Origin: Armatimonadota bacterium
GTDB lineage: Bacteria > Armatimonadota > UBA5829 > DSUL01
Direction of reading: 5' to 3'
DNA length: 64,000 nt
Assembly: GCA_025998755.1 (NCBI GenBank)
Contig: AP024674.1
Coordinates: 434,001-498,000, forward strand
This document shows, one piece after another, positions 6,332-9,277 of this stretch. Within the stretch, counting starts at the first letter, position 1; each line of letters opens with the position of its first letter. The translations under genes were made by a program, and so were the position numbers. Below the pieces are notes generated by a model. That model was not told the origin of the DNA. It saw nothing but the letters and a program-made list of their open reading frames with translations, and made no database searches.

Positions 6332-7123
6332 CTACACCGCGCGGACGTAGATCTCCCGTGCGATGTCCCGGTCTATCGCCACGTCCGTCTCCCCGATGCG
6401 GATGACGTAGGATGGCCTTTTCTGGTGCAACCGGATCTCGGCCCCGGGCGTCAGGCCCAGCACGGCCAGACGGTCCAGACGCGTATGGGACTTCGGCGCG
6501 ATGAACACCACGCGGTACCTCTGGCCCACAGCGGCATCCTCCAGGGGAGCCACCAGCGGAGGCACCTCGCGGGAGATACGCCCGCAGCACCGGCCGCGAG
6601 GAATGGGACGCCCGTGAGGGCAGTGGGGCGGATGTCCCAGAAACGCGCAGATCCGCTCTACCACGGTGGGTGAAATGGCGTGCTCCAGGCGGCAGACGTC
6701 GGTCCGGCTTTCAGCAGCGTCCAGATCCAGCAATTCCGTAAGAAGAAGCTCTGTTAGCCTGTGGCGCCGGATGAGCTCCTCCGCCCTGGCGGCCCCCGTC
6801 TCGCTGAGCCGGACGGTTCCATCCACCTCTTCCACCAGACCCGCCGCTTTCAGACGGGGGAGATGAGCCGAGATTTCGCAGCCGTTCTGGCAATCGGTGC
6901 CGTCGTCCGCGTGCTGCAGACTGCAGGAGTGTCCTGACGAGGCATCCGAGTAACCGGCCGGAATAGACCGCCGGTCCTCCTCGGCCACCCAGAGCTGCTC
7001 CAGGAGATGATCTGTCTGCTCGCGGCTTAGCTCCGGCGGCCCTTCAACCTGGCCGCCACCATTTCCAGAAGGTCCACCACCGACGACCTCATTTTTAGCT
7101 CGATACCGCAGTTTGGACAGCAT
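6332..7123 (-). CDS. DtxR/MntR-like metal regulator with cysteine-rich helix-turn-helix and FeoA-like C-terminal domain
   Basis: Probable iron-responsive repressor of the feo cluster, 263 residues. After a glycine-rich start come a winged helix (about 34-110), a DtxR dimerisation domain (about 111-180) and an SH3/FeoA-like domain (about 185-263). Metal ligands corresponding to DtxR are seen as His121, Glu125, Cys144, Glu147 and His148, but the ligand equivalent to DtxR His98 is Arg140. Oddly, the helix-turn-helix core carries Cys67, Cys78 and Cys82, and more cysteines follow (Cys168, Cys179, Cys180), suggesting an Fe-S or extra metal site (inference). The ATG at 7123 has GGGAG just upstream but overlaps the preceding gene by 97 bases; no other standard start lies before the conserved region. 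It would sense Fe2+ or Mn2+. Confidence 0.75.
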   Translation of the reverse strand: MLSKLRYRAKNEVVGGGPSGNGGGQVEGPPELSREQTDHLLEQLWVAEEDRRSIPAGYSDASSGHSCSLQHADDGTDCQNGCEISAHLPRLKAAGLVEEVDGTVRLSETGAARAEELIRRHRLTELLLTELLDLDAAESRTDVCRLEHAISPTVVERICAFLGHPPHCPHGRPIPRGRCCGRISREVPPLVAPLEDAAVGQRYRVVFIAPKSHTRLDRLAVLGLTPGAEIRLHQKRPSYVIRIGETDVAIDRDIAREIYVRAV

Positions 7124-7233
7124 GACACTCCCGCTCCGGCGTGCTGCTTGTGCAGCGCGCAGCCTTCACACTTTCGCAGCAGCTCTTCCTCAGAGCCGCG
7201 ATACCCGCAGAAATGGCACTGGAACTCACTCAC
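7027..7233 (-). CDS. Small cysteine-rich (double zinc-ribbon-like) protein coupled to feoB
   Basis: A 68-residue soluble protein with cysteines at 6, 9, 22, 25, 38, 39 and 42 and histidines at 28 and 31, arranged as CHFC, CEGC and CCPNC; this looks like two fused metal knuckles. The C-terminal half is a helix (SSVVDLLEMVAARLKGRR). The GTG start overlaps the feoB TGA, so translation should be coupled to feoB, and the 3' end overlaps the N-terminus of the regulator gene. It is not the membrane-type FeoB-associated Cys-rich protein I know, nor FeoC. A role in Fe2+ delivery, Fe sensing or FeoB regulation is inference from position. Confidence 0.7.
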   Translation of the reverse strand: MSEFQCHFCGYRGSEEELLRKCEGCALHKQHAGAGVSCCPNCGIELKMRSSVVDLLEMVAARLKGRRS

Positions 7234-9200
7234 AGTATCCCTGACCTCAGCAGGAGCCGCACGGCCCCGCCTGTCAGGACCGCCACGGGCACAATGAACG
7301 CGGCCATTGCGAGTGCTGTCTTCCAGCCCCTCTCCTTGGCCATCACCAGGAAGTTCGCCACGCACGGGATAAAAAGCGTCAGCGTTACGATGCTGACCAG
7401 CACCTGGTCGTGCGAAAGTTGGCCTGCGTCGAACATGGTCTTCAGTCCCGCTCCGCCGTAATCCCGGCGCAGGAAGCCCATGATGAAAACCTTCGCTGCC
7501 TCTTCCGGCAGTCCCAGCACGCCTGTTACCACCGGCGCGCTCCATCCCTCGATCGTCCCCAGCAGACCCAGCCGGTCCAACAGAAAGAGGACAAGCGTGC
7601 CCAGCACGAACAGCGGGACCGCCTCCTTCAGATACCATTCCGTGCGCGCCAGCGTCTTGTAGAGGATGTTGCCGAGCCGTGGCAGGCGCACCGGCGGCAC
7701 CTCCAGGATGAAGTCCGAACTCTGCCCGGGCATCACCTTCCCGGCCAGATATCCGACGGCCAGCAGAACCAGCCCCACGACACCGGCCCAGATGAACAGC
7801 GATTTCGCAGTGGTCAATAATCCCAGAATGACGCCGAGCTGCGCCGAACAGGGAACGCCAAGCGCCAGCAGCAGAGTCACGATGGTTCGTTCCCGGCGCG
7901 TCTCCAGAATTCGGGTGGTCAGCGTGGCCATGGTGTCGCACCCGAGTCCCAGCACCATCGGCAACACGGCCTTGCCGTTCAATCCCAGCCGGCGGAAGAT
8001 CTGATTCACCTGCACGGCCAGGCGCGGCAGGTATCCCGAATCCTCCAGCACTCCAAAAGCTACGAAGAAGAAAAAGACCACAGGGAGCACGATGGCGATC
8101 CCGTAGGTCAGCGCCATCGTGATGATGCCATACTCGCCAACGAACAGATCCCGCAGGAACGGGACCGGCACGAACGAGAAGACCCGCACCGCGGCGGGGT
8201 TGATGTAGCCGTTGAAAAGCCCCTCTTCAATGAGATCCACCACCGTGCCCGCTCCGAAAACCCCAACCACAAGCCAGGTGACATACAGCACCAGCGCCAG
8301 CCAGGGAACGCCCCAGAACGGGTGCATCATTGTGCGGCCGAGAAAGGCGGCCAGCGCGCTTTCACGGCCTTCGGTCTTCTGAGTCACAAGAGCGAAAAGG
8401 CGTTGTACAGCAAGCGCCCGGTGACGGCTGATGATCTGTGAAAGGGGCAGAGCGGTGGTGGCGGCAAGCGCCGCGCGGATTCCCTCGATCTGATTCAGCC
8501 GGGCAGGATCCAGGTTCCTGACCAGCCACCGGCGGAGCGACTCATCGCCGCTCAGGATCATCAGGGCGACCGCGCGCTTTCCGTGTATTCCCTCCGGAAG
8601 AAGCTCGCTGATCGCCGTGACGGCCTCCTCAATGGCTTCAGGATACCGCACCAGTAGCGCGGGGCGGCGGTCGTGATCCAGATTCTGGACGAGGCGATCC
8701 ATCCCGGTTCCCTCGACGGCCACCGTGCCCACCACCGGGATGCCCAGTTCGGCGCTCAGCTTGTCGGTGTCTATGTGGATCCCGCGCATCCGCGCTTCAT
8801 CCATCATATTGAGCGCCAGCGTGCACGGAAGATCCATCTCCGCAAGCTGCACGGTGATCGCCAGTACGCGCTTCAGGTTCTTCGCGTCGCCCACCTGAAG
8901 CACAAGGTCGGGTGGATCCTCCAGCAGGATGTCCCGCGTGACCTGCTCATCTTCGGACATCGGGATCAGGCTGTTGGTGCCGGGTGTGTCCACCACGGTC
9001 ACACGCTGGCCGCGGATGGTGGCGGTTCCCTTCAGGATCTCGACGGTGGTGCCGGGATAGTTTGAGACGATAACGTATTTTCCGGTCAGGCGCCCGAAGA
9101 TCACGCTCTTGCCGGTGTTCGGATTTCCGACCAGGCAGATGGTGCGCTGGGATGTGAGGTTGATCGTCTCGACAGCCATTCCCGTGGGACCAGATGCCAC
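7230..9200 (-). CDS. feoB: Ferrous iron transport protein B
   Basis: Inner-membrane Fe2+ transporter with an N-terminal G-protein domain. G1 is GNPNTGKS (residues 25-32), G3 is DTPG, and G4 is the NMMD of ALNMMDEA. The C-terminal half has the usual membrane helices with VLGLGCDTMATLTTR and PCSAQLGVI motifs. Length (656) is slightly short, as in FeoB proteins lacking a long C-terminal tail. The GTG at 9200 has AGGAG 14 bases upstream; the ATG at 9179 would remove seven residues and leave the 23-base palindrome wholly in the leader. It heads the minus-strand cluster feoB, cysteine-rich protein, DtxR-like/FeoA regulator. No separate feoA is present. Confidence 0.95.
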   Translation of the reverse strand: MASGPTGMAVETINLTSQRTICLVGNPNTGKSVIFGRLTGKYVIVSNYPGTTVEILKGTATIRGQRVTVVDTPGTNSLIPMSEDEQVTRDILLEDPPDLVLQVGDAKNLKRVLAITVQLAEMDLPCTLALNMMDEARMRGIHIDTDKLSAELGIPVVGTVAVEGTGMDRLVQNLDHDRRPALLVRYPEAIEEAVTAISELLPEGIHGKRAVALMILSGDESLRRWLVRNLDPARLNQIEGIRAALAATTALPLSQIISRHRALAVQRLFALVTQKTEGRESALAAFLGRTMMHPFWGVPWLALVLYVTWLVVGVFGAGTVVDLIEEGLFNGYINPAAVRVFSFVPVPFLRDLFVGEYGIITMALTYGIAIVLPVVFFFFVAFGVLEDSGYLPRLAVQVNQIFRRLGLNGKAVLPMVLGLGCDTMATLTTRILETRRERTIVTLLLALGVPCSAQLGVILGLLTTAKSLFIWAGVVGLVLLAVGYLAGKVMPGQSSDFILEVPPVRLPRLGNILYKTLARTEWYLKEAVPLFVLGTLVLFLLDRLGLLGTIEGWSAPVVTGVLGLPEEAAKVFIMGFLRRDYGGAGLKTMFDAGQLSHDQVLVSIVTLTLFIPCVANFLVMAKERGWKTALAMAAFIVPVAVLTGGAVRLLLRSGIL

Positions 9201-9213
9201 TTGGTGGCATCTG
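9191..9213. promoter_or_regulatory. Perfect 10+3+10 palindrome at the feoB start (candidate metal-regulator operator)
   Basis: Arms CAGATGCCAC (9191-9200) and GTGGCATCTG (9204-9213) are exact reverse complements around the centre TTG. The site covers the GTG start of feoB and sits about 30-50 bases downstream of the likely transcription start. Its size and symmetry fit a dimeric DtxR/MntR-type operator, and such a regulator is the third gene of the cluster. Binding is inference. Confidence 0.6.
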
Positions 9214-9248: not shown

Positions 9249-9277
9249 ATACTACTCATCCCGCGCCTCCCTGTCAA
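9249..9277 (-). promoter_or_regulatory. Sigma70-type promoter of feoB
   Basis: Read on the minus strand: TTGACA (9277-9272), a 17-base spacer, then TAGTAT (9254-9249). The -35 is perfect and the -10 matches four of six bases. The predicted start near 9242 leaves a leader of about 42 bases to the GTG, in which the palindrome lies. Confidence 0.65.

Follow-up and report, generated by a model that had tools for sequence, protein, structure and literature searches.

A DtxR-FeoA gene in the window, the 64,000-nucleotide stretch of Armatimonadota DNA analysed here, encodes a protein that, judging from sequence comparison, is a member of a separate family descended from DtxR-FeoA repressors, which we name CC-DtxR for the Cys-Cys pair in its linker. 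By computation, the members of this family have lost the DtxR helix-turn-helix (HTH) signature, have changed charge in the N-terminal region, share invariant linker cysteines and are linked to feoB. With moderate confidence we propose that CC-DtxR is an iron-sensing protein partner of FeoB that acts on FeoB instead of on DNA. The stronger finding is the family-wide one, which, as read from the aligned sequences, points to a DtxR-derived, FeoB-linked protein with an invariant four-cysteine linker and no remaining DtxR HTH. An earlier, sequence-only reading of this DNA had rightly recognised a real and unusual protein in which extra cysteines beside the DtxR site matter, but it singled out the wrong cysteines and assumed a DNA-binding regulator. 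We found no description of the family in the open-licence literature, and it is apparently undescribed so far.

Gene, linker and family

The window gene starts with an ATG at 7123 that is preceded by GGGAG, and comparison with a same-genus genome gave a pN/pS of 0.033/0.215 over the ORF, indicating purifying selection. Because the coding frame is under purifying selection, the ORF is not a chance one, and a frameshift or wrong start was ruled out on the same grounds, together with an out-of-frame overlap with the neighbouring ORF that the same-genus genome shares. The gene and its parts are as follows.

6332-7123, minus strand: CC-type DtxR-FeoA protein of 263 aa (ATG-started ORF; Pfam; purifying selection against the same-genus genome), laid out as a degenerate N-terminal winged-helix region, DtxR metal/dimerisation domain, four-cysteine linker and FeoA domain
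6770-7027, minus strand: N-terminal domain (residues 33-118) in the position that the HTH occupies in DtxR, without a recognisable HTH (AF2 secondary structure, alignment)
6872-6955, minus strand: lineage-specific insert, residues 57-84, with Cys67, Cys78, Cys82 and His71 (alignment, model disorder, relaxed selection)
6596-6802, minus strand: DtxR metal-binding/dimerisation domain PF02742, residues 108-176 (Pfam, E 2e-25)
6584-6649, minus strand: linker Cys159-x8-Cys168-Pro-His-Gly-x2-Ile-Pro-x-Gly-x-Cys179-Cys180 (invariant in 106 homologues)
6341-6547, minus strand: FeoA (SH3-like) domain PF04023, residues 193-261 (Pfam, E 8e-16)

The defining feature of the family lies in the linker that joins the metal domain to FeoA. 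Cys159, Cys168, Cys179 and Cys180 are invariant across 106 homologues, a set picked by Cys179/Cys180, with Cys159 and Cys168 playing no part in the choice. Every protein with a family-profile score above about 170 bits contains the linker motif; canonical DtxR proteins stay below 120 bits, and Cys159, Cys179 and Cys180 are absent from them. The sequence-only reading had located Cys67, Cys78, Cys82, Cys144, Cys168, Cys179 and Cys180 correctly, and Cys168, Cys179 and Cys180 do matter, but it missed Cys159, which is invariant alongside them. Its further suggestion of an extra cysteine-based metal or Fe-S site is plausible, but the placement of this site in the DNA-binding domain is not supported, the invariant cysteines being the four of the linker. 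A canonical-HTH DtxR-FeoA protein in a genome of the same class (L043 in G007) has a different, longer Cys-rich linker (CPRGG ... NC ... CEPCIRQC), a case suggesting that linkers rich in cysteine may have more than one origin.

About 250 of roughly 950 sampled genomes encode the family, which spans four phyla, one of them archaeal. Using strict cut-offs (1e-35 for the window phylum and 1e-50 for the other three), members were found in 29 of 291 genomes of the window phylum, Armatimonadota by its record titles. In the others, the counts were 105 of 395 genomes (phylum of the Syntrophaceae bin L005), 107 of 246 (phylum of the Nitrospirota bin L011) and 15 of 23 (phylum of L006, whose record title gives Hydrothermarchaeota). 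This last phylum also yielded 11 short proteins that combine a canonical HTH with the CC tail; in the loci whose gene order was examined, they immediately follow the family member in the feoB operon. At five loci (L204, L205, L206, L207 and L208) we observed such a second short DtxR, with a canonical HTH, the same CC tail and no FeoA domain. The canonical-HTH CC proteins formed one branch and the degenerate-HTH proteins grouped with two label changes in a tree that excluded the HTH and Cys-Cys columns and, with few columns left, is weakly resolved.

N-terminal and metal-binding domains

The DtxR HTH profile PF01325 found no match in the window protein, whose N-terminal domain was without a Pfam match even at E 10. 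A PF01325 search of 45 family-carrying genomes likewise never matched the family member; 30 of the 45 gave no match at all, and the matches in the remainder were other genes. Canonical relatives do match PF01325: tested directly in an archaeal operon, the canonical neighbour scored 64 bits and the family member did not match. When 116 family members and 37 canonical proteins were aligned together, column entropy of the HTH was 2.79 bits in the family versus 1.85 bits in canonical relatives at equal sample sizes, whereas the metal domain was more conserved in the family (1.21 versus 1.55 bits). The canonical recognition-helix consensus around S-P-P-S-V is replaced by mostly acidic residues, and the net charge of the 70 residues before the metal domain is -5.5 in the family versus +2.4 in canonical proteins (n = 26) and +1.0 in canonical-HTH relatives that carry the CC tail (n = 11). 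The Mann-Whitney p for this fall in charge is 9e-19, with kinship of the sequences uncorrected. Since the DNA-recognition surface, both HTH signature and recognition-helix consensus, has decayed across the whole family, the earlier assumption of a DNA-binding regulator is doubtful.

The underlying fold was nonetheless recognisable. The model of L005, a family member without the insert, is a full winged helix on which DNA-bound IdeR (7b25_A) superposes at 1.4 Å over 126 columns, and the best matches in a fold search were DtxR/IdeR entries, with no FeoC among the matches listed; in the model of the window member the winged helix is incomplete. Because the L005 winged helix is intact and fits DNA-bound IdeR, family members might bind DNA with another specificity. 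Given this persistence of the fold, the data support a changed surface, and it is only by going further that we infer a loss of DNA binding. The intact L005 fold agrees with an alternative in which CC-DtxR is a metal-activated repressor of its own feoB operon, its diverged recognition helix reading a lineage-specific operator and its FeoA part being an ordinary DtxR SH3-like domain. We regard this as the main rival to our proposal but as unlikely, as the N-terminal domain is acidic and variable throughout while the metal domain is strongly conserved, and the window member has a disordered insert in place of the second HTH helix. Two other iron-related profiles also gave no match: the Rrf2 domain of the IscR/RirA type found no match in the window protein, whose insert cysteines are not conserved, and the FeoC profile PF09012 found none up to E 10 in eight N-terminal domains, in searches where HMMER filters drop weak matches. 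FeoC identity by sequence was rejected on the unmatched PF09012.

In the window protein, residues 33-118 comprise a first helix with His39, then the insert, a third helix and the wing (AF2, alignment), with an insertion of about 16 residues replacing the second HTH helix. Residues 65-80 have pLDDT below 50 and are predicted to be disordered (AF2). Against the same-genus genome, the insert showed a pN/pS of 0.152/0.222 versus 0.027/0.329 in the metal domain and linker, and no other part of the protein is clearly relaxed; the insert cysteines are nonetheless unchanged in that genome. The sequence-only reading had placed Cys67, Cys78 and Cys82 within the DtxR HTH core, as a possible zinc or Fe-S site in the DNA-binding domain of a hybrid repressor, and had named their loss in close homologues as grounds for abandoning the idea. 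No PF01325 HTH is detectable there, the segment being the disordered insert, and 102, 102 and 99 of the 106 homologues have gaps in the respective columns; the conserved cysteines sit in the linker instead. The insert is missing from relatives outside the GTDB family of the window genome. Inside that family, a C-x(2-3)-H ... C pattern is partly kept in four genomes of three divergent lineages despite the fast evolution of the insert, a point in favour of the hybrid repressor, which we nevertheless consider highly improbable. As far as the alignments indicate, the pattern may be a small local metal loop confined to this GTDB family and no property of the wider one.

The metal domain gave a different picture. 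Alignment placed His39, Cys144, Glu147 and His148 at the primary-site positions of DtxR (Met10, Cys102, Glu105 and His106), and His121, Glu125 and Arg140 at the ancillary positions (His79, Glu83 and His98). The claim that a DtxR-type site is retained thus holds beyond the window protein, where His121, Glu125, Cys144, Glu147 and His148 are all present as described: Cys144 occurs in 103, Glu147 in 105 and His148 in all 106 homologues, and His121 and Glu125 are likewise conserved in this alignment. Two positions vary. The Met10 equivalent is Glu in 90 and His in 10 of the 106, the window protein having His39, and the His98 equivalent is Glu in 61, His in 18 and Asp in 15. The alignment bore out the reported Arg140 at the latter position, and this arginine is peculiar to the window genus.

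The feoB operon and its leader

The gene belongs to a feoB operon, as had been proposed, and is the third gene in the order feoB, Cys-rich ORF, DtxR-FeoA. The remaining features of the operon and its leader are listed here.

9249-9277, minus strand: sigma-70-like promoter TTGACA-17-TAGTAT upstream of feoB
9191-9213, minus strand: perfect 10+3+10 palindrome (23 bp) in the feoB leader, a candidate operator or RNA hairpin
7230-9200, minus strand: feoB (TIGR00437, E 1e-120)
7027-7233, minus strand: small Cys-rich, zinc-ribbon-like ORF between feoB and the DtxR-FeoA gene (ORF list, locus comparison)

The start of feoB is more likely the ATG at 9179, as in a same-family genome. The Cys-rich ORF overlaps the feoB stop (GTGA, 7230-7233) and, in a different frame, runs 97 bases into the start of the DtxR-FeoA ORF; this 97-base overlap is kept in the same-genus genome, both frames within it being too constrained for selection to be judged there. 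An ORF of this kind (CxxC...CxGC...CCPNCGY) intervenes in many family loci from three or more phyla. It matched no Pfam family over the cut-off, with sub-threshold zinc-ribbon matches only, and we note it as a candidate new Feo-associated protein. Rfam searches of the operon and leader returned no match at E up to 1.

Linkage to feoB extends across the family. Among 60 fetched loci, the CC-DtxR gene lies directly downstream of feoB on the same strand in 53, upstream in 1 and not adjacent in 6. Five of these six are from Nitrospirota (L194, L195, L196, L199 and L201), where the gene sits beside rnhB, hypF, miaB and other housekeeping genes (neighbour names read by eye); since these members lie away from feoB, an exclusive FeoB role is unsupported there. 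The FeoA-like tail noted from the sequence alone corresponds to the PF04023 match. The window genome has two FeoA domains only, one here and one in the canonical MntR of a metal ABC transporter operon, and no stand-alone FeoA. Similarly, in about 20 of the 45 genomes the single FeoA domain found is that of the CC-DtxR protein. That CC-DtxR so often supplies the only FeoA domain found, and that its N-terminal domain is decaying, would suit a protein that is simply the FeoA of its operon, a captured DtxR-FeoA gene whose DtxR part serves as a dimerisation scaffold without metal sensing. This is improbable in view of the nearly invariant Cys144, Glu147 and His148, a metal domain more conserved than that of real repressors, and the four invariant linker cysteines.

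The feoB leader bears on the repressor alternative introduced above. The 23-bp palindrome reported at 9191-9213 does exist, and the palindrome TGCCACnnnGTGGCA occurs in three places only in the 3.29 Mb genome. One is the feoB leader; the other two copies lie 79 bp apart (L235 1708-1722 and 1787-1801) before a gene pair encoding a prepilin-like DUF1559 protein and PepSY_TM. The same-genus genome has TGCCACnnnGTGGCA unchanged, and a further genus of the GTDB family has a degenerate form of it. An operator-like element that is both rare and kept between congeners argues for a repressor, and the window CC-DtxR protein is one candidate binder of it, which keeps that alternative alive. In about two thirds of the 45 genomes tested, moreover, there is no DtxR-like protein other than CC-DtxR, so that a regulator role would otherwise be vacant there, Fur being outside the search.

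Other operons speak against a repressor. Across the family, no palindrome is common to the feoB leaders, few of which have a comparable one. DtxR-box-like sites before feoB (at least 14 matches of 19, equal to or above the best of 100 shuffles) were found only in L204, L205, L206 and L208, which are archaeal operons with an additional gene for a canonical DtxR. With four operons that have canonical DtxR upstream of feoB set aside, such sites precede feoB in 4 of 5 operons with a downstream canonical DtxR versus 0 of 42 others (Fisher p 3e-5). Thus some operons hold a canonical DtxR in addition to CC-DtxR, and none without one has a DtxR-box-like site.

A proposed FeoB partner and its relation to known systems

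A controller of FeoB at the protein level fits these observations, because the DNA-reading surface is decayed, the Fe(II) site conserved, the four cysteines invariant and the gene placed behind feoB. In the mechanism we propose, the feoB operon supplies CC-DtxR, which would bind the FeoB G-domain through its FeoA domain. Cytosolic Fe(II), and perhaps also Fe-S or zinc/redox state, would be sensed by the His39/Cys144/Glu147/His148 site together with the Cys159/168/179/180 cluster. The DtxR dimer would relay the metal signal to FeoB and thereby adjust uptake at the post-translational level. The winged-helix remnant may serve as a protein-contact surface, like the winged helix of FeoC. Control could take the form of activation at low iron or of inhibition at high iron. 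A more specific version, which we offer tentatively as possible if rather doubtful, is that the linker cysteines hold an Fe-S cluster (or zinc) beside the Fe(II) site, that both iron and redox/Fe-S status are read and FeoB gated post-translationally, and that the work of FeoA and FeoC is thereby combined in anaerobic bacteria and archaea.

CC-DtxR shares with DtxR/IdeR the three-part order (Fe_dep_repress, Fe_dep_repr_C and SH3/FeoA), the Cys102/Glu105/His106 equivalents and the C-terminal FeoA domain. It differs in its acidic, variable N-terminal domain without a PF01325 match, His or Glu at the Met10 position, mostly Glu at the His98 position, the four invariant linker cysteines and a gene directly behind feoB. 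Like FeoA, it is a source of a PF04023 domain within the feoB operon, and frequently no other was found in the same genome, but here this domain is fused behind a DtxR sensor domain. FeoA stabilises GTP-bound FeoB (PMC8980893). The winged-helix protein FeoC, with its gene downstream of feoAB, interacts with FeoB, shields it from FtsH and contains an Fe-S cluster (PMC10710835, PMC8749426, PMC7762939). CC-DtxR resembles FeoC as an accessory gene product of winged-helix fold, encoded downstream of feoB and with conserved cysteines; in contrast, it is about three times larger, is unmatched by PF09012 and has its cysteines in the linker, whereas those of FeoC lie in the wing of the winged helix. 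MntR of P. gingivalis is comparable in that it comes from an anaerobe, belongs to the DtxR family, and has FeoA domains that are functional as well as a mixed Fe/Mn site (PMC4805248), but PgMntR has a working HTH, binds DNA, and possesses two FeoA domains and four cysteines in all, without the linker set.

The control of FeoB outside Gammaproteobacteria, where FeoC is nearly absent, is an open question, and the role of FeoA is still debated. If our proposal is correct, CC-DtxR would illustrate plainly how a transcription factor can become a transporter regulator, tied to feoB, with the metal site kept and the DNA-reading surface lost. As a separate observation, two metal ABC transporter permeases beside mntR in the window's own genome (L236 3692-4969 and 4969-6381; about 3.27 Mb) have C-terminal extensions that apparently resemble the DtxR metal domain, both regions having scored in the protein search, and may represent a parallel instance of a transporter linked to part of a DtxR sensor.
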